From NCBI RefSeq assembly GCF_000303155.1, contig NC_018719.1, positions 1,798,001-1,862,000 of the forward strand: a stretch of DNA of 64,000 bases, in the 5' to 3' direction. Positions 5,366 to 17,946 of the stretch are shown here, one piece after another (positions within the stretch are counted from its first letter, which is position 1; each line of letters starts with the position of its first letter). The notes under the pieces were generated by a model. It did not search any database, had not been told where the DNA came from, and saw nothing but the letters and a program-made list of their open reading frames with translations. The translations under genes and the position numbers were made by a program. The DNA is from Candidatus Nitrososphaera gargensis Ga9.2 (lineage in GTDB: Archaea > Thermoproteota > Nitrososphaeria > Nitrososphaerales > Nitrososphaeraceae).

Positions 5366-6805
5366 GTGGCAGAATCGACCGTGAGCATCGATGGGGAGAA
5401 TGAGAGTCGGCCTATATACATGCCGGATGAGCTCATGCGCTTTATTCAGCGCGACACGTATTCACTCCTCATTAAAGGCTTTGCTGGCACCGGTAAGACC
5501 ACGCTTGCGCTCACTATCTTGAAGGCGCTTGAAAGCAAGAACAACTTTTTCTACATCTCGACAAGGATCTCGCCAAAGCAGCTTTTCCAATACTACCCAT
5601 GGCTTGCGAAATTTGTAGGGCAGCCCAGGCCAGCAAACCCCGCGGAAGCGCCGGATCACGGGCTGATGACAAGTTTCGAGGACGCAAGGCTCGACGAACC
5701 CGAATCGCTCTTTGAGCGCATCACCAACCAGCTGATGGACATCAAGTCGCCAGTGATCATCATTGACAGCTGGGACGCAATCGCGTCGTTCATGGATAAG
5801 GAGGCACGCCTCAACAACGAGAGGGTGCTCCAGACGTGGAGGGAAAGGGCAGGGGCCAAGCTGATATTCATAAGCGAGCACCCAGACGACACCACGCTTG
5901 ACTTTCTTGTTGACGGCATCGTGGAGCTGAAGCAGAGCTACTACGAAAGCGTGCGGGTGCGCGAAATATTTCTGCTCAAACTCCGGGGCATACGTATTGA
6001 AAGGCCGTCGTACATCTATACACTTGACAACAGCGTCTTCCGCAGCTTTGTACCTTACAGGCCGATCAAGTTCAAGCCGGCGGCGGAGCCGTACAGGAAA
6101 AAAATTCGTATTAGCAACGGAATCGCGACAACTGACTACATCCGGAGCGGTTACCCTGTACTGGACAGCTCGCTTGGCGGCGGCTTTCCAAGGAAAGGCA
6201 CAGTTCTGCTTGAGCTGGATCCGCATGTAAACGCTGTCGTGGCCATGGCTTTCCTCGAGAGGATCATATCGAACTTTATCTTCGACAACAACCCTGTGCT
6301 GTTCCAGCCATTTGATTGGATGGACCCGCATGCCATAATGGATTATCTGGAGCCGTCGATGCCTGCAGACAAAAAGGACCTTTTCAAGATATTATGGATG
6401 AGCAAGGTAAACGGCATGGCCGACAACATCATCACCATGCCGGGCAAAAAACAGCGCGCCGACCCGATCGTAGAAGCACTTGCCAAGATGAAACAAAAGC
6501 GCCCCGACAAATTGCTGCTCAACATCATGGGGACAGATATGATGCAGAGATCCTATGGCAGAAAGGGTATAAGGAGCGGGATGGAAAACCTGCTGTCAGA
6601 CATCAGGACAAGCGCAGACCTCTCAATAGCCGTTGTAAGCCACTCGCAAGGGGAAGTGCTGGAGTATCTTTCAGAAGTATCAGATATGCACCTGTGCTTG
6701 ATGATGATAAAGGACACGCTGTTCCTGCAGTCGCTCGTCCCGGCGTCGACCCTGTATGCCGTGGTGTTTGACGAGCACCAGATTGGCCTAGAGCCGGTCG
6801 TGTAG
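5366..6805 (+). CDS. GvpD/KaiC-like P-loop ATPase (RecA superfamily)
   Basis: 479 residues with a clear Walker A (GFAGTGKTTLA, about residues 38-48) and a Walker B-like hydrophobic strand ending in Asp (SPVIIIDSWD, about 129-138). A second, P-loop-less RecA-like half follows from about residue 245 (SGYPVLDSSLGGGFPRKGT). This layout resembles the GvpD-type regulators and tandem KaiC-like ATPases of archaea. No gas-vesicle structural genes are nearby, so a general signalling or regulatory role is more likely. It converges on a winged-helix gene. Function is unproven. Confidence 0.75.
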   Translation: MAESTVSIDGENESRPIYMPDELMRFIQRDTYSLLIKGFAGTGKTTLALTILKALESKNNFFYISTRISPKQLFQYYPWLAKFVGQPRPANPAEAPDHGLMTSFEDARLDEPESLFERITNQLMDIKSPVIIIDSWDAIASFMDKEARLNNERVLQTWRERAGAKLIFISEHPDDTTLDFLVDGIVELKQSYYESVRVREIFLLKLRGIRIERPSYIYTLDNSVFRSFVPYRPIKFKPAAEPYRKKIRISNGIATTDYIRSGYPVLDSSLGGGFPRKGTVLLELDPHVNAVVAMAFLERIISNFIFDNNPVLFQPFDWMDPHAIMDYLEPSMPADKKDLFKILWMSKVNGMADNIITMPGKKQRADPIVEALAKMKQKRPDKLLLNIMGTDMMQRSYGRKGIRSGMENLLSDIRTSADLSIAVVSHSQGEVLEYLSEVSDMHLCLMMIKDTLFLQSLVPASTLYAVVFDEHQIGLEPVV

Positions 6806-6818
6806 AGTGTTATATCAG

Positions 6819-7115
6819 TCACGTGCTCAGGTGGTAGTACTCGTCAGCCAGATTTTCTTCAATGCCTACAGGCAAAAGCTCTTTCATCTGATCATAGTAT
6901 GACAGGAACCTGCTGCCCTTGGGCGTTATCTTGTAAAGCGTCTTGTCGCCGTTGTTCACTTCGTGCACAAGGCCGCTTTTGATCAGCGAGTCCAGGTACA
7001 ACTTGCACTGGTCGTTGCTCAACATTGCCTTGTACATTATCTTGGTGCGAGTCTCCTCCTTGTTTACTGACTTTAGTATAGCTGCAATTACTTCGTATCG
7101 GCTACGGTTCTTCAT
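6819..7115 (-). CDS. HTH_45-type winged-helix regulator
   Basis: 98 residues from the ATG at 7115 (MKNRSRYEVIAAIL). The pattern R-S-R-Y-E-V-I followed by TRTKIMYKAMLSNDQCKLYL is the typical recognition-helix region of the small winged-helix regulators expanded in thaumarchaea. The wing is KTLYKITPKGSRFL. The frame is open further upstream, but that part looks like promoter sequence (tatatcagatatttcatataa). This is one of five related genes or remnants in the window. Confidence 0.85.
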   Translation of the reverse strand: MKNRSRYEVIAAILKSVNKEETRTKIMYKAMLSNDQCKLYLDSLIKSGLVHEVNNGDKTLYKITPKGSRFLSYYDQMKELLPVGIEENLADEYYHLST

Positions 7116-7254
7116 TCGGCCGCCAGAGATACAACATACATCATATATCAGATATTTCATATAAAATACGACACCATGTCTCTGTAACAATCTTCTTTGT
7201 CAACGTTTTTTTGCTGTGATACTGCAAAACCTGCTCGCCTGATGGCATGAATTT

Positions 7255-7557
7255 TCATGTAAGCGAGGGCGGTGGGGCTTTTGTGAAAAGCGAAGCCAAC
7301 TGCTTGTAGTGCGCGATGAATTTCTTGCCAAGATCGGTCGTCTTGTATATATAGCGCTTGGAGCTTGGGCGCTCCTGTATCATTTCAAGCATCCCACTAT
7401 CTAACAGGAACTCCAGGTACTGGTTTATCTGCTTGGAGTTCAGGTTACAGCGATACATGACATGAGTCTTCCTTGCTCCATTTTCGCACATGAGCAGGAT
7501 GAACTCTATTATCTCTAGCCATCCCCTGTTACTCCAGCCTGCTGCGTTTAAAGGCAA
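7255..7557 (-). CDS. Divergent HTH_45-like winged-helix protein
   Basis: About 100 residues from a TTG at 7557. It keeps the family layout: helix (WLEIIEFILLMCENGARKTHVMYRC), recognition helix (LNSKQINQYLEFLLDSGML), wing (RYIYKTTDLGKKFI). It is more diverged than the other copies and carries a Pro-rich tail. It probably acts as a DNA-binding regulator; the target is unknown. It lies next to and on the same strand as the BshC-like gene upstream, with about 80 nt between them. Confidence 0.75.
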   Translation of the reverse strand: MPLNAAGWSNRGWLEIIEFILLMCENGARKTHVMYRCNLNSKQINQYLEFLLDSGMLEMIQERPSSKRYIYKTTDLGKKFIAHYKQLASLFTKAPPPSLT

Positions 7558-7635: not shown

Positions 7636-9291
7636 CTAAGTTGGCTGAAACACTACCGGCAAGGCGAGTCGACCGTCTTTGACAAGGTGGTTCCTCCAAG
7701 CCTGCTCCGTCCTTGCCATACCAAAGTTGACGGCATAATCGATAAAGCAAGGAGAAAGGCTGACTATGTTCCTTATCTTTTTTGCCAGGCTTATCTGCTG
7801 CCGGATCCTTCGCTGCCCTTCCTTAAGTTCGAACAGCTGCGACAAAAGCTCGTCGATAGGCTCGCCGGCCCTTATCTTTTCAGCCCTCATTGAGAGGAGC
7901 GGCCTCATCCTTTTTTCATATTCTGCGTTCTGCTTTTCAAGCAACTGCAGGTAGAGCTCGATATTGTTCTCCGAGGGCATCGCCGCCGCGGCTTTCCGCT
8001 GACCTATGCCCTCATAGATGTCTCTTGAAGACCAGATGAGGGTGAGTGGCAGCCTAATCCCAAGCTTTCCGCTGACTATGCTTCCATCGACAAGGTAGCC
8101 TATGCCTCCCGTCCCTGACGCATAGCAAGAGATTCCAAGGTCCCTTGCAAGCAGCAGCGGGATTGGGATCGCGCGAGGCGACAGGTCATGGATGTTGTTG
8201 CAGCCACCAAGGTCGAGGTTATTCTGGCGGCCGAGGTTCAGCTCCAGCTCTTTCTTGCACGATATGCACGGGCCAGCCAGCACAAGGTCGCCGTTCTTGC
8301 TCACTATTTTTACAGACGCCTTGCTTCCACATCTGCAGTGAACCCAGACGGGCGCGTGCAGGTACGAAGAAGGGCTGACGCCTGTGTCGATCCCGCAGCT
8401 CATAAACATGTTCTCTGCGCGCCTTAGCGCGTCAGAGTACCTGGCCGAATTCGAAATCAAGAACGCAAAGCCGTCCTCAAACACTGAGGATATTTCTGAT
8501 AGCCTGACAAATAGCGTGCTGTAGTTCCATGCTCCATTGACGACCCTTGACATGAGAAACGAGTTCAGATCCGCGTGCGATTTGGCCCTTTCGTACGAAG
8601 CTTCGACATGCTGCCAGAACTGCTCTAAATTGTCGATAAACACACTCCTCATGTCTGCGCCTGCAGTGCTCTTGATCCATGATTTGACCTGACGCTTCCA
8701 GTTATGCACAACCAATTCGCTTGGTACCGGCATGTTGCAGACCATCTGCCAGCGCTTTGATTCGCTGACGGGCAGCCGTAGCTCCATCACGCCAGAGGAA
8801 TGCTGCATGCTGGGCAGCTGCGCAAGCCTTACCCAAGACTCGTCAACAAAGTCATGGTCCACCACGAGAAAGAGGTTGACTATCCTGCTGCTACCGCCTC
8901 TGTCAAGCTCTTCAATGGCATCCTTTAAAGTTTCAAGCAGGACTATTTTCTTAAAGACCCTGCCGTATGCAAAGAGGTTTGGCTGGTGCGTAGAAACGAC
9001 TATCCTTGCCGCGGGGTCATCCAAAAGCTCGATGCTACTTCTGACATGCTCTGTGAGCGTGCCGGCCTCAGAATGGAATTTCTTGATAAACGACTTGAGC
9101 ACCGCGCGGTTGCGCAGGACAAAGTCTCCTGTCTGGATCTTTTGCGATGCTACGCGATTTACTGCATCGGCAAACTTTTCCGGTATTGACCCTGTAAACT
9201 CAGAAACAGCTGGATCATTTACTTGATTGAATCTAGCAAACAGTGCTCTTACTTGCAGTGGTGCTTGGTCGACTACTGCTAGCGGCGACAT
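7636..9291 (-). CDS. BshC-like putative cysteine ligase with inserted zinc-ribbon
   Basis: 551 residues resembling bacillithiol synthase BshC, which joins cysteine to a glucosamine conjugate. Matching landmarks are the nucleotide-fold strand VVSTHQPNLFAYGRVFKK (about 98-115), VVDHDFVDESW (about 143-153), the late SPRAIPIPLLLARDLG and YASGTGGIGYLVDG segments (about 371-403), and a long C-terminal coiled coil (about 440-515). Unlike the BshC I know, it carries a Cys cluster C319-x-C321-x20-C342-x2-C345 that looks like a zinc ribbon. It is immediately downstream of a PIG-L deacetylase gene (21-nt gap), a BshB-BshC-like pairing. Substrate is unknown; it may make a different thiol or amide conjugate. 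Confidence 0.7.
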   Translation of the reverse strand: MSPLAVVDQAPLQVRALFARFNQVNDPAVSEFTGSIPEKFADAVNRVASQKIQTGDFVLRNRAVLKSFIKKFHSEAGTLTEHVRSSIELLDDPAARIVVSTHQPNLFAYGRVFKKIVLLETLKDAIEELDRGGSSRIVNLFLVVDHDFVDESWVRLAQLPSMQHSSGVMELRLPVSESKRWQMVCNMPVPSELVVHNWKRQVKSWIKSTAGADMRSVFIDNLEQFWQHVEASYERAKSHADLNSFLMSRVVNGAWNYSTLFVRLSEISSVFEDGFAFLISNSARYSDALRRAENMFMSCGIDTGVSPSSYLHAPVWVHCRCGSKASVKIVSKNGDLVLAGPCISCKKELELNLGRQNNLDLGGCNNIHDLSPRAIPIPLLLARDLGISCYASGTGGIGYLVDGSIVSGKLGIRLPLTLIWSSRDIYEGIGQRKAAAAMPSENNIELYLQLLEKQNAEYEKRMRPLLSMRAEKIRAGEPIDELLSQLFELKEGQRRIRQQISLAKKIRNIVSLSPCFIDYAVNFGMARTEQAWRNHLVKDGRLALPVVFQPT

Positions 9292-9312: not shown

Positions 9313-10014
9313 CTAGATTAGCTCGATTATCTCCTTGGGCCTGGTCGCCCCGGCGATCTTGGGTATGCGGTCATTTGGAACCTTCCAGAGCTTGAACTCT
9401 TTGCCAAAGCATATCTTTAGCACTTCAAACGCTTCGACATAGTTTATCGATGTGTTGAGCCTGCTTTGCAGTGCGCGGTATTCTGCAAGGCCCTTGATCG
9501 CGTTTGCTTTCAGGTACAGCTTGCTCTGCTGCGACCAGAATATCTTGATAAGCTCCACCTTTTCGTCAACGACATCGGAAATGTCGTAATACACTTGCGG
9601 CTTGAAATCCTTGGTGAGTGGTATTTCATAAGACATGATGTTTGGGATGAACCTTCCTGCCTCAATTGTGGATGACGCGACAGCACGGTGGTCGTGGTGA
9701 ACATCGCCAAGCGAATGGGTGATTATGAGATCAGGATCAGCTTTGTTGATAAAGAACTCGATGTGGTTTATGAGGTCCGTGCTACTGACGTTGAGCCTTG
9801 TGTCTTCAAAGTTGTCAATCCACAGCGCTTTTGCCCCGATGAACTTTGCAGACTGCATAAGCTCCTTTGTCCTCTGCTCTGGATCGCCTGAAGCCGCCCC
9901 ACGTGTCAGGGTGTACATGAAAACGCTGTGCCCTTGCCTTGCGGCCTTTATCAAAAGTCCTCCGCAGCCCAACTCTATGTCGTCAGGATGCGCGCCTATA
10001 GCTAGAATGTTCAC
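9313..10014 (-). CDS. PIG-L/BshB family Zn-dependent N-deacetylase
   Basis: 233 residues with the LmbE/PIG-L motif AHPDDIELGCGG (residues 8-19; His and Asp for Zn) and the later HSLGDVHHDHRAV (about 115-127) carrying the third Zn ligand and catalytic His. This family removes acetyl from GlcNAc conjugates (GlcNAc-PI, GlcNAc-malate, GlcNAc-inositol). The start overlaps no gene; a divergent promoter region of about 150 nt separates it from the polysaccharide genes. It is co-oriented with and upstream of the BshC-like gene, so both probably act in one pathway. Confidence 0.88.
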   Translation of the reverse strand: MNILAIGAHPDDIELGCGGLLIKAARQGHSVFMYTLTRGAASGDPEQRTKELMQSAKFIGAKALWIDNFEDTRLNVSSTDLINHIEFFINKADPDLIITHSLGDVHHDHRAVASSTIEAGRFIPNIMSYEIPLTKDFKPQVYYDISDVVDEKVELIKIFWSQQSKLYLKANAIKGLAEYRALQSRLNTSINYVEAFEVLKICFGKEFKLWKVPNDRIPKIAGATRPKEIIELI

Positions 10015-10079
10015 GAGTGCAACTCTCTATCGTGCTTATTTATCGATGAACTAACCTTCTTCTATTCGATTCAGTTTGT

Positions 10080-10087
10080 TTCTAGAA
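10080..10087. promoter_or_regulatory. Palindrome TTCTAGAA, copy 1
   Basis: This lies in the divergent space between the PIG-L gene and the helical-repeat protein gene, 75 nt before the latter. Same 8-bp palindrome as at 14927, 16025, 17967 and 18100. Possible shared regulator site. Confidence 0.35.
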
Positions 10088-10162
10088 GCGTAGCTTGAAC
10101 GATTCTAAGTAGAGAAAATTGCTCTTGAGTTAAAAATTGGGCGTAAAAGGCTTGAGTGGAAT

Positions 10163-10810
10163 ATGCAGGTAAAAACTTGGTTACAGAGACTTACAGACGA
10201 GTCTAATCTGTGGTTCAATGCGGTCAAGGCAGAAGATGAAGGGAGCTTTCAGAGCGCCATTTCATATTACATGAAGGACGCTCTGGAATGCATAAGGCAG
10301 CACTCGCTTGTCAGGGCAGCGCTAAGCTGTTCGTGCGCGGCCAACTGCCTAGCAAGGATGGGCGCGTGGTCGCCGGCGCGCATGCTGTATTCAGAGGCTG
10401 GCCGCCTTTATGTCGAAAATTCAGAAATTGCAATGTCCGAGTCGATAAGGGAGGCCCTCTGGTCGCTGCAGGAGGCTTTTGAAAATTATGCGCTTGCAGG
10501 TGATGACAGTGCAGCAGACACCGTGCGCGAAAGGTATGTCATGCTTGCTGCCAGAACAAGCCCGTTTTCAAGAGCAGGGCAGGTTGCAGAGGATCTGGAA
10601 TCGCGCAGGGTGGAATCGATCAAGCCTGATCCAAGGAAGAAGGAAGCAAGCATTCCAGAAGAGCTGGCTGGCGAAATTGAAAACTTCGTGAGGGCAAGAA
10701 GGTCTGGCACGGCAAGGACCGACGACTCGTTTGACCCAAGCTATGTCATGAGATCGATAGGCGTGAACAACGGAGGCAGCAGGTTGGATGAAAAAAGTAT
10801 TGCTAGTTAA
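10163..10810 (+). CDS. Helical-repeat (TPR-like) protein opening the Pel-like operon
   Basis: 215 residues. Residues about 5-130 are a run of amphipathic helices with small-residue packing (SAISYYMKDALECIRQH, AALSCSCAANCLARMG, WSPARMLYSEAGRLY, ALWSLQEAFENYALAG), suggestive of TPR or SNAP-like repeats. The rest is charged and probably disordered. No signal peptide. The gene overlaps the following PelF-like gene by 23 nt. By position it could be a scaffold like the TPR part of bacterial PelE, but that is inference. Confidence 0.7.
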   Translation: MQVKTWLQRLTDESNLWFNAVKAEDEGSFQSAISYYMKDALECIRQHSLVRAALSCSCAANCLARMGAWSPARMLYSEAGRLYVENSEIAMSESIREALWSLQEAFENYALAGDDSAADTVRERYVMLAARTSPFSRAGQVAEDLESRRVESIKPDPRKKEASIPEELAGEIENFVRARRSGTARTDDSFDPSYVMRSIGVNNGGSRLDEKSIAS

Positions 10811-12287
10811 CTGGGACAGCTACCCAAATGTCATGTCCGGCGGGGTCTACTCGTGGGAAAAGACCCTTGTTGAAAGCATGACAGATTACGAGTTTACGGT
10901 CATAAACCTGCTTTCAAACCCAAACGTCAACGGCAAGTTCACCGTTCCTCCGCATGTAAAGCAGGTAATAGACTTGCCTCTCTTTGGCTCCAATAGGTAC
11001 GAGGAATTCTACACCGATAAAAATAGGCCACTACTCGACAAGATAGCGCGCACCAAAGATCACATCATAGTGGAAGAGTTCATGCCGCTCTACAGGAAGT
11101 TCCTTGCAAGCATCTTCTCAAACAACTGCGACCCTGCAGAGCTTTCCCAGATTGTCTACCGACTCCACAGGTTCCTTTCGGTCTACGACTCTAAAAAGTG
11201 TCTAGAGCATACGCTTGCCTGGGAAACCTTTCTTGACCAGCTAGAATGCGACCCGCTCTACCGCGAGATGACCATGAGAGAAGCGCTGACTGCATTCCAG
11301 ATTGTACAGCGCAACATGCAGATACTGTCTCTTGAAGTCCCCCGGGTCGACCTCGTGCACTGTTCCCTAGCATGGTTCCCAGCAATGATAGCAGTCTCAG
11401 CCAAGATAGAGCACGACTGCCCGATCATAATCACCGAGCATGGCGTGGCGTTCCGGGAGCTCCTGCTCTACTATAACGCGTTTCTGCGCGACGAGCCGTC
11501 CAACATTTTCTGGAAGCTCTTTTCCGCAAACGTCGTTCGGACGGTGTATTCTATGGCAGACGTGATCGCACCAGTCTGCTATGCAAACGCAAAGTGGGAG
11601 GAGAGTCTGGGGGCCGAGCCGTCCAAGATCAAGGTGATATACAACGGCGTGGATGCGACCAAGTTCCGTCCACTGGACTTGAAAAGAGAGGACACGCGGC
11701 CTACAGTTGCCTGCATTGGCAGGGTCGACGTCTTCAAAGACATTGTGAACCTCATCCAGTCGATACGGTACGTCAAGGACCGGGTGCCTGACATCCAGTG
11801 CCTGATCTACGGCGCGTCAACGGATCTAGAGTACTCGCTCAGGTGCGTCAACATGGTGTCTGCCCTCGGCCTGCAGGGGAACATCCGGTTTATGGGCAAG
11901 GTCAAGGACCCAGAGATAGCCTACAATGCGGCCGACGTGATTGTGGTAAGCAGCATCACAGAGGGCTTTCCGTTTGCCGTAATTGAAGCAATGGCGTGCG
12001 GCAAGGGCATAGTCGCCACGGACGTTGGCGGCATAAGGGAAGCCCTTGAAGGCTGCGGCCTCTTGGTCAGAAGTAGCCACCCGCAAGAGCTTGCAAACGC
12101 AATAGTCCAACTCCTGCAGGACGAGAACCTGAGGTCAAGGCTTGGGGCGGCCGCTCTTGAGCGGGCCCGGAAGGGCTTTACGATAGAGCAGTCGCTTGGC
12201 CAGTACCGAGAGCAGTACAAGCGCTTGACGGAGGCGCAGCAAAGCCGCGCGCCGGTGGCAAAGGAGGAGGTGGCAGCAGCCCAGTGA
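10788..12287 (+). CDS. PelF-like GT4 glycosyltransferase
   Basis: 499 residues of GT-B fold. The N-terminal half starts with VNWDSYPNVMSGGVYSWEKT and has the acceptor-domain motif ITEHGVAFRELLLYYN (about 215-230), typical of the PelF-type N-domain (DUF3492). The C-terminal half has VIYNGVDATKFRP and the donor-binding E-x7-E motif TEGFPFAVIEAMACGKG (about 390-406). PelF transfers UDP-activated N-acetylhexosamine during Pel exopolysaccharide synthesis. Start ATG at 10788 overlaps the upstream gene; the stop overlaps the epimerase GTG by 4 nt. Confidence 0.85.
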   Translation: MKKVLLVNWDSYPNVMSGGVYSWEKTLVESMTDYEFTVINLLSNPNVNGKFTVPPHVKQVIDLPLFGSNRYEEFYTDKNRPLLDKIARTKDHIIVEEFMPLYRKFLASIFSNNCDPAELSQIVYRLHRFLSVYDSKKCLEHTLAWETFLDQLECDPLYREMTMREALTAFQIVQRNMQILSLEVPRVDLVHCSLAWFPAMIAVSAKIEHDCPIIITEHGVAFRELLLYYNAFLRDEPSNIFWKLFSANVVRTVYSMADVIAPVCYANAKWEESLGAEPSKIKVIYNGVDATKFRPLDLKREDTRPTVACIGRVDVFKDIVNLIQSIRYVKDRVPDIQCLIYGASTDLEYSLRCVNMVSALGLQGNIRFMGKVKDPEIAYNAADVIVVSSITEGFPFAVIEAMACGKGIVATDVGGIREALEGCGLLVRSSHPQELANAIVQLLQDENLRSRLGAAALERARKGFTIEQSLGQYREQYKRLTEAQQSRAPVAKEEVAAAQ

Positions 12288-13258
12288 GGATCGCAAAGGC
12301 ACTTGTCACAGGAGGGGCCGGCTTTATAGGAAGCCACATCGTGGACGAGCTGATAGCAAGGGGCATCGAGACCTACGTCATCGACAACCTGAGCACTGGC
12401 ACGCTCAACAACCTCGTGCAGCATCGCGGCAATAGCCTGCTCCACTTTATGGCCGGGGACGTCAGAGAAGCGGAAGCGCTCCTACAGGATACGAATATCG
12501 ACGTCGTCTTCCATGAAGCGGCCATAGCCAGCGTCCCCAAATCGGTAAGCCATCCTCTGCTGGTACATGACGTAAATGTAAACATGACTCTACACCTGCT
12601 GAACTATTGCGTCAAGAGCGGGGTCAAGCGCTTCATCTTTGCCTCTTCGGCGGCGGTTTATGGAATATTGGAAAGCAAGGCGACTGAGGACATGGCATGC
12701 AGGCCAAACTCGCCATATGGCGCCGGCAAGCTGGCGATTGAAGACTATTTACACGCGTACAGGCGGACATATGGCCTTGAAACTGTGATGCTGCGCTACT
12801 TTAACGTCTACGGCCCGCGCCAGATCTACAGCGACTACAGCGGCGTCATCACGATTTTCATAAACAAGCTGCTCGAAGGCGAGCGGCCAGTCATATTCGG
12901 GGACGGCCTGCAGGTGAGGGACTTTGTACATGTCAGCGACATCGTGCAGGCAAACATGCTGGCAATGGATTCTGCGGCTGCAGTCGGAGAGATGTTTAAC
13001 GTCGCATCGGGCAGGGCCACTAACATATTGGAGATGGTCAAAATCATAAAGAAACTGATGGGCGCCACGGACATCGAGCACCAGTTTGCCCCGCCGAGGC
13101 CAGGCGACATGAAGCTTGGCCTTGCATCGATTGACAAGATACGGGCGGTGCTGGGCTACGACCCAAAGATCCAAATACAGCAGGGGCTGAAAGGTGTGAT
13201 CGAGTCAATAAGCAAGATACAGGTGCCGAAAATACAACATGCCGGTGAGGCGACCTAG
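12284..13258 (+). CDS. NAD-dependent sugar-nucleotide epimerase (GalE/PelX-like)
   Basis: 324-residue short-chain dehydrogenase of the extended type. GGAGFIGSHIVDEL is the NAD-binding glycine motif, the SSAAVYG serine and the YGAGK tyrosine/lysine form the catalytic set, and RYFNVYGPRQ is the substrate loop. It most likely interconverts UDP-Glc/Gal or UDP-GlcNAc/GalNAc, supplying the PelF-like transferase. The GTG start (12284) overlaps the transferase stop, so the enzymes are made together. Exact sugar specificity cannot be read from the sequence. Confidence 0.88.
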   Translation: MRIAKALVTGGAGFIGSHIVDELIARGIETYVIDNLSTGTLNNLVQHRGNSLLHFMAGDVREAEALLQDTNIDVVFHEAAIASVPKSVSHPLLVHDVNVNMTLHLLNYCVKSGVKRFIFASSAAVYGILESKATEDMACRPNSPYGAGKLAIEDYLHAYRRTYGLETVMLRYFNVYGPRQIYSDYSGVITIFINKLLEGERPVIFGDGLQVRDFVHVSDIVQANMLAMDSAAAVGEMFNVASGRATNILEMVKIIKKLMGATDIEHQFAPPRPGDMKLGLASIDKIRAVLGYDPKIQIQQGLKGVIESISKIQVPKIQHAGEAT

Positions 13259-13261
13259 TAG

Positions 13262-14917
13262 ATGGAATCGGTTCAAGAAAATAAAGAAATTTCAAGAGAA
13301 GCAAGGGTGTTTGCAAACAAGACTGCAAGGTCCATAGCCGAGATCCAGCAGAGCGTCAACAACATGGCCGATGTCCTGGTATTCCTCGAAGTACTCGGCT
13401 ACGACGACAGGACTGCAAAGAGGAATGGCTTTGAAAACCTCTACGAGCTTGCAAAGTATGTCTACAACTTTGTCGATGCCTATGATGATGACGACAAGTC
13501 TCACACGTCCAACTCCTTTGCAATGGAGGTACCAAGCACAAAGAAGCGCCTTGCGGAAAGCCTTAGCATGATATTCCCGTGGCTGGGCTCGCTCGTGCTC
13601 CTGTTCTTGACAGGCGTGTCGCTCTGGATGGCGTGGGACCTTCCAGCCAGCGTGACGACCGCGTTCTTGGCCGGCGTGTTTCTGGGGCTGGTGGTGACCG
13701 AAGGGCTGCTGCAGAACTATAACCGGTTGTTCTCGTTCTACTATTCTCAGACTAACATTGGAGAAATAAAGCGAAGCATCGAGAGGAGCTATGTCCTTGC
13801 CGGCGTGATACTATCTGGCACCGTTGCCCTGCTGTATGGTGTATCAGAGCTTGCAAACATCCCGCTTGAACTTGCCATGATAGCGGCCGTCAGCACGGTA
13901 ACGATTTCGCTCCACAGGATAAGCTATGTCATAATGTATGCGCTCAAAAAACTGACGCATATCGGGATCTCCTATGCGATCGCGCTTGGTGTCCTTGCCG
14001 GCGTGTTCTTTCTTGCGCCGGACGCCATCCCTGACGTCACCGTGCGCTACTTTGCCGCCCTTGGCAGCGCGTTTGCAGTGCTCTCTAGCTTTGCGATGTA
14101 CCACCATTACAAGATAATGGGCAAGAGCTCGACTTCGATAGTTGCCAAAAATGCTCCACATTTTTACAGCCCGCTGACAGTCAACGACAATACCATTACA
14201 TCGCGCTTTGGAGTGCAGCTGTGGGAGTGCCTGCCGTATTTCATGTATGGCACATTCTACTTTATCTTGCTTTTTGCCGACAGAGCAATATCGTGGTTCT
14301 TCAACCCTGTATCAGTCACCGCCGCAAACGGGACAATTCTGCCGCTGTCCTTCAACTCTATCTACCACATCGGGGCAGACCTCGCGCTTCTCGTGATACT
14401 TCCAGTCGCAATAATGCAGTATGTCATAACGTCGCCTATCTATGCGCTCGTGCACAACCGCGCAATAGTGCTAAAGGTATCGGAGAACAAAAAGATCGAT
14501 TGGTTCCTGCAATACAGCTACCACAAGCTGATGGCTGCGTCAATCGCGGTGTCTGTTGCCGGCGCGCTGATACTGAATTTGGTGGCTCCTGCGATAATAA
14601 TTGGATACCTTGGGGGCTCTGAAGTCAGCATGCGCATACTGACCTTTGCTTCGGCTGGCGCAGTCTTTCTTTCAGTATTCGCTGCAAATGGAGTCTTTAT
14701 GATATTCCTTGGCAAGGTAAAGGCACTGGCGCAAGTGTCGCTTGCAGCAGCGTTTATCGTCATTGTGGGGGGCACGTTCCTTGCGCAGTATGGTGGCTTT
14801 GAAAATATAGTGATCGCGTACTTGGCCGCCACAGTGTTTGCTGGCATGGCATCGACTGTTGCAATGAGAGTGGCGATCAGAAAGGCAGCCAGCTTACTTT
14901 TTGCGCGCTACATCTGA
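13262..14917 (+). CDS. PelG-like polytopic polysaccharide export protein
   Basis: 551 residues with a soluble N-terminal ~95 residues (helical, acidic) and about 12 hydrophobic segments. The YFMYGTFYFILLFADRAISW segment (about 325-344) is the hallmark I associate with PelG, an inner-membrane protein of the MOP flippase superfamily. Others are LVTEGLLQNYNRLFSFYYSQ and YALVHNRAIVL. The gene begins 3 nt after the epimerase stop. With PelF and an epimerase directly upstream it completes a minimal Pel-like set. PelA, PelB, PelC and PelD relatives are not seen nearby. Confidence 0.8.
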   Translation: MESVQENKEISREARVFANKTARSIAEIQQSVNNMADVLVFLEVLGYDDRTAKRNGFENLYELAKYVYNFVDAYDDDDKSHTSNSFAMEVPSTKKRLAESLSMIFPWLGSLVLLFLTGVSLWMAWDLPASVTTAFLAGVFLGLVVTEGLLQNYNRLFSFYYSQTNIGEIKRSIERSYVLAGVILSGTVALLYGVSELANIPLELAMIAAVSTVTISLHRISYVIMYALKKLTHIGISYAIALGVLAGVFFLAPDAIPDVTVRYFAALGSAFAVLSSFAMYHHYKIMGKSSTSIVAKNAPHFYSPLTVNDNTITSRFGVQLWECLPYFMYGTFYFILLFADRAISWFFNPVSVTAANGTILPLSFNSIYHIGADLALLVILPVAIMQYVITSPIYALVHNRAIVLKVSENKKIDWFLQYSYHKLMAASIAVSVAGALILNLVAPAIIIGYLGGSEVSMRILTFASAGAVFLSVFAANGVFMIFLGKVKALAQVSLAAAFIVIVGGTFLAQYGGFENIVIAYLAATVFAGMASTVAMRVAIRKAASLLFARYI

Positions 14918-14923
14918 TCGCTA

Positions 14924-14937
14924 TATTTCTAGAAATA
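14924..14937. promoter_or_regulatory. 14-bp perfect palindrome TATTTCTAGAAATA between convergent genes
   Basis: A perfect 14-bp palindrome containing TTCTAGAA lies 6 nt after the pelG-like stop and includes the stop codon of the convergent ATP-grasp gene. It may be a termination signal, or a copy of the element seen upstream of neighbouring genes, or partly coding coincidence. Confidence 0.35.
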
Positions 14938-15972
14938 GTCTGGCACAAACGAGCCTTTTTCTACTCTTCTGCCATGCAATGCTTTTTCGTACACCAAGTA
15001 CGGCACATACACCTCGTTCCAGTACCTCATGCATACGAGCCGCTCATAGCTGTTGATCTTGACTTCTTGGCCCAACACGGTGTTGCGGAATACGATGTCC
15101 GGTTCGTTGACGCCGGCGGCCGCGCGCATGGGGCATGTGGCTGAAAAGCGCGGGTTTATTTCAAACACCACCGGCGCCTCGCCTTCAAGCTTTGCCTGCA
15201 CATTGATCGGGCCGGAAGCGCCGAGCTTTAGCGCAACGTCTTCTGCGGACCTGCACACACTGTGGTAATGGTCTATAAAGGCTTTGTAGGTCTGACCATG
15301 CTTGATCATCTTGCGAATCGATATTGATGACATGGCATATGTGGAGTTCCTGTCGATCGTGACCCCTGTAGTGAATTCATCGCCAGCCAGGTACTTTTGA
15401 ACAAGAGGTCTCCAACCGGCCCTTTCAATAGCCAAAATGGAGCTGTCCATCTCTTGCTTGCTCTTTGCAATATAGAAATGGAGCGAGCCATATCCCTCTC
15501 TCGGCTTGACGACAACCGGGAATCCAAACTCTCTGACGAACGCGTCACGCTCTTCTGGGAGCGACGAGGGCGCGCACGCAAGGCCGTTTGCCCTGCAAAA
15601 TTCATAAGTTGCCCACTTGTCCCTTGCGATAGCGAGCGCCTCAAGCGGCCCCGTCAAAAGTTTTGCTCCTGTCTTCTCTATCGCCTCTTTTGCGCCTGCC
15701 AGAGCCAGCAGCTCATCGTCAGATCCGCAGAAAACCGCCTGCACGTCGTTGTCGCTGCATACCTTTGCAACGCTGTCAATATAGTCCGGCGATGACACCG
15801 GGGGAACTAGAATGCCGCTGTCGCAGCGATAAAGGCCCGCTGCAAGCGGGCTCATGTCGGCCGCAATTATTGTATACCTGATGTCTCCCTTTTTGCTTGC
15901 AAGCTTAAGCGACTTTATTATGCCTTGGGCTACAATACTGCCAGCGGCAGTCACTAGCACCCTTGCATTCAT
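14929..15972 (-). CDS. ATP-grasp ligase, carbamoyl-phosphate-synthase-like
   Basis: 347 residues. N-terminal Rossmann-like preATP-grasp domain (VLVTAAGSIVAQGIIKSL), then the ATP-grasp fold with FPVVVKPREGYGS (about 150-162, ATP-binding Lys), VQKYLAGDEFTTGV, and the metal site APVVFEINPRFSAT (about 265-278). This subfamily ligates a carboxylate to an amine or other nucleophile in peptide, lipid or sugar modification. The gene converges on the Pel-like run. Substrate is unknown; modification of the polymer or of an amino-sugar conjugate is a plausible reading. Confidence 0.85.
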   Translation of the reverse strand: MNARVLVTAAGSIVAQGIIKSLKLASKKGDIRYTIIAADMSPLAAGLYRCDSGILVPPVSSPDYIDSVAKVCSDNDVQAVFCGSDDELLALAGAKEAIEKTGAKLLTGPLEALAIARDKWATYEFCRANGLACAPSSLPEERDAFVREFGFPVVVKPREGYGSLHFYIAKSKQEMDSSILAIERAGWRPLVQKYLAGDEFTTGVTIDRNSTYAMSSISIRKMIKHGQTYKAFIDHYHSVCRSAEDVALKLGASGPINVQAKLEGEAPVVFEINPRFSATCPMRAAAGVNEPDIVFRNTVLGQEVKINSYERLVCMRYWNEVYVPYLVYEKALHGRRVEKGSFVPDYF

Positions 15973-16082: not shown

Positions 16083-17018
16083 TTGTTGCAACTGGAGCGG
16101 TCTGCTGCAAAGGCTAATGCACCTGATTTTCTCAAGCAAATTGGGCTGGCATTAGGCGCGCTGCAGGCAGAAAGACAAAAGAAAAGCATAGCAGGCGGCA
16201 AGGTCAATGGCGGGCTAGTGGAAATACAAAAGCTGGAGAAACTTGCAGTTGTTAGCGACCTGCATGGCGATTCAAAGTCGCTCTTCCGGATCCTTTCAGA
16301 ATTGAACTATGAACAGTTCCTGTCTGACCCAATGAACAAGCTTGTGTTCCTTGGCGACTATGTCGACAGGGGAAGCGATTCTATGGGGGTGATGTACGCA
16401 GTATGCCACCTCAAAAGCACGTATCCCGACTCGGTAGTGCTCATGCGGGGGAACCACGAAGCACCGGCCGAGTTCCCGTTTTCATCTCACAACCTGCCTT
16501 ATGAAATCGAGGAGCGCTTTGGAAGCTGCAGCAAAGAAGTCTACCAGAGACTGCTGTCAATGTTCAAGTTGCTCACGCTTGCTACGGTGGTCAGGCAAAA
16601 GCTGCTGCTGGTCCACGGAGGGCTTCCGACTGAAAATGCGACAATGGAATCGCTAGCCACTGCACAGGAGAATCATATCAGAAGCAGGGTGCTTGAAGAG
16701 CTGCTTTGGAACGACCCGCGGCAGATCGACATCGAGCCGGGATGGGAAATGTCAAGGAGGGGGCTTGGAAGGCACTTTGGAAGCGGCGTATCGCGCATGT
16801 GGCTTCAGAGGTCAGGCGCAAAGGTGATAGTGAGAGGGCACGAGCCCTGCCAAGGGTTCAGACTGGATCACGACGGCGCTGTCATGACGCTCTTTTCATG
16901 CAAGGAGGCGTACCCAAAGTTCAAGGCCGCGTACCTGGCCTTGACTGCAGGCCAGCTTGATGATATTAATGACGCAAGAGATCTGTCGCGCTATGTCAGA
17001 TTTCCAGAGTTGCTTTGA
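16083..17018 (+). CDS. PPP-family serine/threonine protein phosphatase
   Basis: 311 residues with the full set of PPP metallophosphatase motifs: SDLHGD (about 57-62), FLGDYVDRG (about 88-96), LMRGNHEAP (about 120-128), LVHGGLP (about 176-182) and VRGHEPC (about 253-259). These ligands hold the two-metal centre that hydrolyses phospho-Ser/Thr. The N-terminal ~50 residues are variable; the TTG start at 16083 is the longest choice. It converges on the TFB gene with a 23-nt overlap. Eukaryote-like PPP enzymes are sporadic in archaea; the substrate is unknown. Confidence 0.9.
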   Translation: MLQLERSAAKANAPDFLKQIGLALGALQAERQKKSIAGGKVNGGLVEIQKLEKLAVVSDLHGDSKSLFRILSELNYEQFLSDPMNKLVFLGDYVDRGSDSMGVMYAVCHLKSTYPDSVVLMRGNHEAPAEFPFSSHNLPYEIEERFGSCSKEVYQRLLSMFKLLTLATVVRQKLLLVHGGLPTENATMESLATAQENHIRSRVLEELLWNDPRQIDIEPGWEMSRRGLGRHFGSGVSRMWLQRSGAKVIVRGHEPCQGFRLDHDGAVMTLFSCKEAYPKFKAAYLALTAGQLDDINDARDLSRYVRFPELL

Positions 17019-17946
17019 TCTCTTTACACCTTTTTCGAAGCGATACTGTGGATATGTCAGCCACTTGGCATATCTCTACCTGGCGCAGGAACTCATTGCA
17101 GTTCTGCGACGCAAGGTAAATGACCGCGCCTGCGAGCGCTCTCGGGTTCTTGCCAAGCGAGATTCGGTTCTGCTGCACCATCGCATAGATACGCAATGCC
17201 TCGCGCTTTGTCCGCTCGCTCAGGTCAAGCCTGTTGGCTATCAGTGTCACATAGTCAGGGCCGTGCAAGACAGGCATCTGCAGTGACAGCTCCCTCAGGA
17301 TGAGCTTGTAGTGCGCCATCACGTCCTTGCTTGATAGGTTGCAGACGGCTGCAACATCCGCTACAGTCTTTGGAGTGGCAGTTTCCCTGCATGCAGCATA
17401 GAGCGACGCCCCGACAAGACCGAGCGTCGACCTGCCTTTTGCCAGCTTTTTTAGCGCGGCCTTTCTGTAAATGTAGGCTGCACTTTCCATCACCGCCTGG
17501 CTAAGATACAGCTTGTCGCCAAAGTTGTTCAGGAACTTGAGCGCCTTTTCCAAGTTCCTAGAGATCGAGTCGTTGAGCTGCGACCTGTTGTTCCAGGTGC
17601 GCAGCCTCTGCATCTTCATCTTTTGCGCCGGCTCGAGCATCTTGCCCCTTGCATCAGTGTCGTCAAGCCCTATTAACGTCGAGAGCCCCTTGTGGTGTAT
17701 CACAAGCGATTCTGGCATGCCGGTCCTCGTCCTGTCGCTGTACTCTGAAGGATTTGTGGTGCCGGCCGTGCTGTCTGCGTGCAAAATCCTGTCGTCTGCA
17801 ACGCAGCCACACGAGCTGCAAACAAATTCGCTAGAGACCATGTCAAATATCACTGTCTCACTCTCACATTGCTTGCAATACGTTAGATTATTATCGTTAG
17901 AATGTATTTGTTGTTCAGCTGATTCCATCGCAACTACGACGCTCAC
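16996..17946 (-). CDS. tfb: Transcription initiation factor B (TFB)
   Basis: 316 residues with an N-terminal zinc ribbon (YCKQCESET then FVCSSCGC), the B-reader/linker (RTGMPESLVIHHKGLSTLIG), and two cyclin repeats (about 115-205 and 210-305, beginning SQAVMESAAYIYRKA and TLIANRLDLSERTKREA). TFB recruits RNA polymerase to TATA/BRE promoters. Thaumarchaea carry several TFBs, so this may be a paralogue for a gene subset. A TTCTAGAA palindrome lies 20 nt upstream of the start. Confidence 0.95.
   Translation of the reverse strand: MSVVVAMESAEQQIHSNDNNLTYCKQCESETVIFDMVSSEFVCSSCGCVADDRILHADSTAGTTNPSEYSDRTRTGMPESLVIHHKGLSTLIGLDDTDARGKMLEPAQKMKMQRLRTWNNRSQLNDSISRNLEKALKFLNNFGDKLYLSQAVMESAAYIYRKAALKKLAKGRSTLGLVGASLYAACRETATPKTVADVAAVCNLSSKDVMAHYKLILRELSLQMPVLHGPDYVTLIANRLDLSERTKREALRIYAMVQQNRISLGKNPRALAGAVIYLASQNCNEFLRQVEICQVADISTVSLRKRCKEIKATLEI

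Follow-up and report, generated by a model that had tools for sequence, protein, structure and literature searches.

Pel-type systems and the archaeal locus

The closest described systems to the locus analysed here are the pelABCDEFG operon of Pseudomonas with the epimerase PelX, the pelDEADAFG operon of Gram-positive bacteria (Bacillus cereus, Streptococcus) and, by analogy, the fungal galactosaminogalactan cluster (Gtb3, Uge3, Agd3, Sph3 and Ega3). In the literature searched, with few subscription papers within reach, Pel was described only from bacteria and PelF was not coupled with Thaumarchaeota; two large surveys of Pel operons make no mention of archaea. To our knowledge, no genetic basis has been established for a biofilm polymer of ammonia-oxidising archaea (AOA), which are abundant worldwide. 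Here, we analyse four genes at positions 10163-14917 of a 64,000-nucleotide stretch (the window) of Candidatus Nitrososphaera gargensis Ga9.2 (NC_018719.1, 1,798,001 to 1,862,000), the genome of which is a single contig of 2,833,868 bp. They encode a tetratricopeptide repeat (TPR)-like protein, PelF, a short-chain dehydrogenase/reductase (SDR) epimerase and PelG (Table 1). It is likely that they belong to an archaeal Pel-type system for an alpha-1,4-linked N-acetylgalactosamine (GalNAc) exopolysaccharide, with an accessory set of its own.

An earlier note on this DNA, made from the letters alone, had described adjacent, overlapping or nearly abutting genes for a PelF-like glycosyltransferase of family 4 (GT4), a GalE/PelX-like epimerase and a PelG-like membrane protein of the multidrug/oligosaccharidyl-lipid/polysaccharide (MOP) fold, led by a helical-repeat protein. 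This description was borne out by profiles and folds, and the cassette was kept in all 10 PelG-positive genomes. The first two genes overlap by 23 bp, the second and third by 4 bp, and the third and fourth are 3 bp apart; all four lie on the + strand and therefore probably form one transcription unit. The GC content of the operon is unremarkable. A scan for sigma-70 promoters and terminators gave results near chance, and such a scan is not valid for archaea.

The archaeal locus shares a single-membrane host, a PelF polymerase, a PelG exporter and an epimerase-type SDR with the Gram-positive operon. In the latter, however, the SDR is fused to PelD, whereas it is free in the archaeal locus, in which no homologue of PelD, PelE or the PelA deacetylase was found and which contains a soluble TPR-like protein, a PIG-L de-N-acetylase and an N-extended PelG. 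In common with Pseudomonas are the PelF catalytic residues, a distant PelG and a PelX-like epimerase, but no homologue of PelA, B, C, D or E was found in the archaeon. The pelF-pelG loci of Actinobacteria, Deinococcus and acidobacteria (L138, L144, L139, L142, L143, L071 and L073) likewise have PelF followed by an N-extended PelG, with an SDR next in most, and those of Streptomyces, Kocuria and Lentzea include Spherulin4/GH135, as is the case with the archaeal system. Unlike the archaeal loci, they showed no TPR-like protein, and the similarity of the PelG N-domain is weak (E from 2e-4 to 0.2). The fungal cluster has an epimerase, a synthase, a deacetylase and GH135 too, although its synthase and deacetylase are apparently unrelated to the archaeal enzymes.

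The predicted polymerase PelF

The 499-aa protein is a true member of the PelF family. It scored 156.8 bits with the NCBIfam equivalog model NF038011 (cut-off 100; profile positions 8-489 of 489), against at most 112 bits with the next-best NCBIfam GT4 model, and DUF3492, the PelF N-domain, matched at 103 bits. Four residues (R312, K317, E392 and E400) are invariant across the alignment of archaeal and bacterial PelFs. They are spaced as are R325, K330, E405 and E413 in the PelF of P. aeruginosa, where we take E413 to be a fourth donor-site residue. R325, K330 and E405 are donor-binding sites (PMC10185581).

Among 398 genomes of the phylum, PelF exceeded the cut-off in 10, and lower scores fell to generic GT4s; the genomes above it correspond to the PelG-linked loci plus a few other archaea. 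In the maximum-likelihood tree, all AOA PelFs form one clade (100/100) beside those of other archaea (92/96). The acidobacterial, deinococcal and actinobacterial PelFs are nearer to the archaeal ones than the proteobacterial PelFs (81/90), which carry a 14-residue insertion that is missing from archaeal PelF in the alignment. A second, diverged PelF-like GT4 was found near pelF-pelG in two non-AOA archaea (L051:6459-7817 and L052:183-1535); it keeps the R/K/E/E residues and sits on a long branch.

The predicted exporter PelG

The 551-aa protein is a remote homologue of PelG. Pfam searches of the protein and of the genome gave no match of the window's own PelG to PF16933, and for this reason its membership is argued from its orthologues, 8 of 10 of which match that family. 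With a cut-off of 29, orthologues scored 31.8 and 49.1 bits above it and 28.9, 16.6 and 13.1 bits below; of the orthologues, two in AOA and two in other archaea exceeded the gathering score. The Pfam search of the window's genome was negative for PelG and, without the orthologues, would have been misleading. Aligned with hhalign, the archaeal and bacterial PelGs gave an E-value of 6.8e-11 (probability 97%).

A sequence search found no relatives of the 551-aa protein in the PDB. Its AlphaFold2 model, built from 10 sequences with a predicted local distance difference test (pLDDT) of 73.6, has about 12 membrane helices and, ahead of them, a helical domain that is soluble and roughly 75-95 residues long, and a MOP fold is predicted for the membrane part. 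In Foldseek, that part was matched best by MATE, MurJ and WzxE, with no PelG structure among the matches. These matches would suit an ordinary Wzx/Wzy-type glycan locus, in which a generic flippase and a generic GT4 have no relation to Pel. The profiles contradict such a reading, since PelG was the sole transporter family matching and no MATE/Wzx profile matched any of the 10 orthologues, while PelF passed its equivalog cut-off. Neither a Wzy nor an initiating phosphoglycosyltransferase is present in the cassette, and we regard this explanation as very improbable. In the comparisons that the earlier note had proposed, of PelF and PelG with generic GT4 and MATE/Wzx families and for the PelF N-domain, the Pel families thus came out ahead.

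The N-terminal domain distinguishes the archaeal protein from proteobacterial PelG, which has about 457 aa and lacks it. An archaeal-only profile of this domain was run against 1809 open reading frames (ORFs). The six best further matches were all neighbours of PelF, in Lentzea, an acidobacterium, Streptomyces, Kocuria, a deltaproteobacterium and Deinococcus, with E-values of 2e-4 to 0.18 (four under 0.01, the remaining two 0.018 and 0.18). We infer an N-extended PelG subfamily that spans bacteria and archaea.

The epimerase and the TPR-like protein

The solved structures nearest to the 324-aa SDR are 4zrm, a UDP-glucose 4-epimerase, and 6wjb/6wj9; the entries 6wj9, 6wja and 6wjb are presumably the PelX protein from Pseudomonas protegens. 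The function of PelX as a UDP-GlcNAc C4-epimerase is documented (PMC9135694). The catalytic Tyr145 and Lys149 are invariant in the orthologues. In SDR epimerases, a small gatekeeper residue gives room for the N-acetyl group; Gly279, which aligns with a Ser of 6wjb and is invariant in 10 orthologues, is consistent with such room. The enzyme is predicted to act as a UDP-GlcNAc/UDP-GalNAc 4-epimerase.

The 215-aa protein was modelled by AlphaFold2 as a TPR-like solenoid of alpha-hairpins (pLDDT 85.7), with a weak Pfam match to SNAP and no significant Foldseek match. According to the earlier note, it could stand in for PelE. Homology to bacterial PelE was not detectable by hhalign (probability 0.24%), and the protein has no hydrophobic or membrane segment and none of the N-terminal transmembrane (TM) helices of PelE. 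We therefore rejected it as a PelE homologue, and it can be an analogue at most. Its gene, the most constant partner in the cassette, precedes pelF in every complete AOA locus (in L019, it precedes the epimerase-PelF pair), and a shorter TPR-like protein precedes PelF in non-AOA archaea. Locus L019 of G156 also has, at 11793-13460 on the - strand and running divergently from the operon, a second TPR-like gene next to a second epimerase but no second pelF or pelG, which indicates a partial duplication.

Distribution and accessory enzymes

Co-occurrence was assessed in 200 Nitrososphaeria genomes. The cassette was found in 10 of them, all PelG-positive, at 36-71% protein identity and across five genera and two AOA families. 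At least eight further complete loci came from named genomes, including Nitrososphaera, Nitrosotalea, Gagatemarchaeum (L061) and other Thaumarchaeota metagenome-assembled genomes. Its presence is patchy, since several close relatives lack it: of the same genus as the window's genome, the single-contig genomes G131 and G135 have no operon.

The locus goes beyond a minimal core, as a PIG-L and a GH135 protein co-occur with it. Strong homologues of the TPR protein and PIG-L copies of at least 70% identity were each found in exactly the 10 PelG-positive genomes, with PIG-L paralogues of no more than 66% elsewhere. Spherulin4/GH135 was present in 10/10 operon genomes and in 2/190 others, one of these two having broken fragments. 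Fisher tests for TPR, PIG-L and GH135 gave 4e-17, 4e-17 and 3e-15 with shared ancestry ignored. The PIG-L gene, 148 bp from the operon in the window, lies within some 20 kb of it in nearly all loci. GH135 fragments with stop codons occur in L179 (G143:C70, C16 and C88), in a same-genus genome without the operon, and appear to be decaying remnants.

A natural deletion was identified in L150 (G124, contig C47). This locus is collinear with the operon loci (GvpD-like ATPase, GlmS, ATP-grasp, phosphatase, transcription factor B (TFB) and winged-helix gene), with only about 250 bp left between GlmS and ATP-grasp, in which nothing of the operon can be recognised. Next to the winged-helix gene, PIG-L is absent as well, and the G124 genome has no GH135, so that the absence of operon, PIG-L and GH135 is coupled.

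The GH135 protein of the window's genome (G000:C1, about 2776405) scored 148.6 bits versus 30.2 with the Spherulin4 profile. It has an apparent signal peptide, and it matches the Sph3 structures 5c5g/5d6t with an E-value of 4e-18. In the alignment with Sph3, its GIFFDE motif with the catalytic Asp-Glu is retained. GH135 enzymes are alpha-1,4-N-acetylgalactosaminidases (PMC12054363), and Sph3 disrupts Pel aggregates (PMC12345266). Several paralogues are found per genome. Many AOA, and also Gagatemarchaeum, have GH135 genes inside their loci, as do actinobacterial pelFG plasmids, on which a polygalactosaminidase is annotated as well. In loci of the Nitrosotalea type, the operon is flanked by GlmS, which catalyses the first step of hexosamine synthesis. 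Together, the GH135 family, its likeness to Sph3, its place in the loci and the adjoining GlmS favour an alpha-1,4-GalNAc polymer, and some archaea probably make such a Pel-like polymer.

A 2023 study interpreted secreted GH135 in Gagatemarchaeaceae as degrading fungal cell walls (PMC10640624). In that case, the archaeal enzymes would take fungal galactosaminogalactan as food and the link with the operon would be ecological, through fungus-rich soils; the several paralogues per genome fit such a role. Against it, GH135 shares its neighbourhood with pelFG in many archaea and actinobacteria, and G124 lacks both GH135 and the operon. The host of the window is, moreover, an autotroph of thermal springs. 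We consider use as food rather improbable. The Gagatemarchaeum operon, with GH135 in the same locus, suggests processing of a self-made polymer, and the fungal-wall interpretation should be reconsidered. For the GH135 genes of acidic-soil Thaumarchaeota, the emphasis would then shift from fungus-eating to matrix processing.

Proposed pathway

Based on the above results, the following pathway is likely. The SDR epimerase would convert UDP-GlcNAc to UDP-GalNAc, from which PelF, working on the inside of the membrane, would form an alpha-1,4-linked GalNAc chain. The chain would be moved across the single membrane by the N-extended PelG, of a type shared with Gram-positive-type bacteria. The PelG N-domain may, with the cytosolic TPR-like protein, scaffold or gate PelF on PelG, a task of PelD and PelE in bacteria. 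The cytosolic PIG-L would de-N-acetylate either the sugar nucleotide or the growing chain, so that a partly cationic polymer results, and secreted GH135 would trim this polymer outside the cell. Four polysaccharide deacetylase domains above the cut-off elsewhere in the window's genome could also act. We lean slightly towards a wider reading for soil Thaumarchaeota and their relatives, in which these parts make up a matrix system of the Pel/galactosaminogalactan class, with a TPR scaffold in place of PelD and PelE and with GH135 acting on the cell's own product and not on fungi. PelB and PelC are not expected in a single-membrane cell.

Several observations speak against this pathway. Taken alone, the window's PelG misses its Pfam family, as described above. 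PelA works outside the cytoplasm but the PIG-L lacks a signal peptide, and GH135 is not adjacent to the operon in the window's genome. No GH114/PelA (PF03537) was found there by profile search and no PelD-GGDEF either, the latter absence being weak because the PelD control matched nowhere. In the bacteria studied so far, Pel depends on both PelD and PelE (PMC7112168, PMC12345266). Residues 8-13 of PelF (window 10809-10826) are of the NWDxYP type in AOA, as opposed to EGTYP/EGTFP in all other PelFs, and AOA PelF has one extra residue ahead of the GG motif. This WDxYP-type change possibly affects the active site; therefore, the donor or acceptor could differ.

The motif change also suits a different role, in which the PelF and PelG homologues make another polymer, or a surface glycan attached to lipid or protein, with another hexosamine or linkage, the epimerase and GT4 having been recruited to S-layer or capsule glycosylation. 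The epimerase is indeed nearest to a generic UDP-glucose 4-epimerase, and the ATP-grasp neighbour suggests an extra modification. Against this stand the near-exclusive co-occurrence with GH135, the characterised member of which cuts alpha-1,4-GalNAc, the same hydrolase families beside actinobacterial pelFG and the small gatekeeper residue of the epimerase. Overall, a different glycan seems unlikely.

For the Pel-type system, the view of the earlier note that only a synthesis and export core is present holds for the four genes themselves but not for the genome, with PIG-L next door and secreted GH135 elsewhere. PelA-like functions are probably present in non-homologous form, as PIG-L and secreted GH135 co-occur with the operon. 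The presence of the operon would predict which species make a biofilm polymer of this kind (the window's genome would, G131 and G135 would not). A GalNAc lectin, Sph3 and PelA hydrolase are the tools that the locus suggests for testing this.

Gene neighbourhood

Table 1. Features of the pel-like locus and its surroundings in the window
Feature	Position	Strand	Basis or remark
GvpD/KaiC-like ATPase, conserved neighbour	5366..6805	+	Close full-length homologue in 10/10 operon genomes and in G124, G184 and G194
Winged-helix regulator (HTH_45), conserved neighbour	7255..7557	-	In 10/10 operon genomes and 4 others
PIG-L/BshB1-like de-N-acetylase, divergent from operon	9313..10014	-	PF02585, 87 bits
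Divergent intergenic region of 148 bp, PIG-L to operon	10015..10162	.	ORF coordinates
TPR-like helical protein, soluble, 215 aa	10163..10810	+	First gene of operon; analogue of PelE by position, not a homologue
PelF, GT4 polymerase with DUF3492 N-domain, 499 aa	10788..12287	+	NF038011 and DUF3492 profiles
PelX/GalE-like SDR epimerase, predicted UDP-GlcNAc/UDP-GalNAc 4-epimerase, 324 aa, GTG start	12284..13258	+	Closest structures 4zrm and 6wjb/6wj9
PelG-like MOP-fold exporter, about 12 TM helices, 551 aa	13262..14917	+	PF16933 in orthologues, hhalign, Foldseek
Soluble helical N-domain of PelG, about residues 1-94	13262..13543	+	Structure model; absent from proteobacterial PelG
ATP-grasp ligase (PRK12767 type), convergent conserved neighbour	14929..15972	-	Close homologue adjoins pelG in 8/10 loci

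The neighbourhood kept around the operon across AOA families comprises a GvpD/KaiC-like ATPase (5366-6805), two winged-helix regulators (6819-7557) and, at 16083-17946, a PPP-type phosphatase and TFB. These genes may be regulatory, the ATPase being a possible regulator. The ATP-grasp, winged-helix and GvpD-like genes were rejected as strict operon members, each also being found in genomes without the operon; the link of ATP-grasp with the operon is looser for this reason. The BshC-like gene at 7636-9291 (- strand) was likewise rejected, as the loci in which it adjoins the operon are all of Nitrososphaeraceae and the operon-less L152 has it too. Its product is a weak match to PF10079 (25.8 bits, below the cut-off), and with the adjoining BshB1-like PIG-L it forms a pair that superficially resembles bacillithiol genes.

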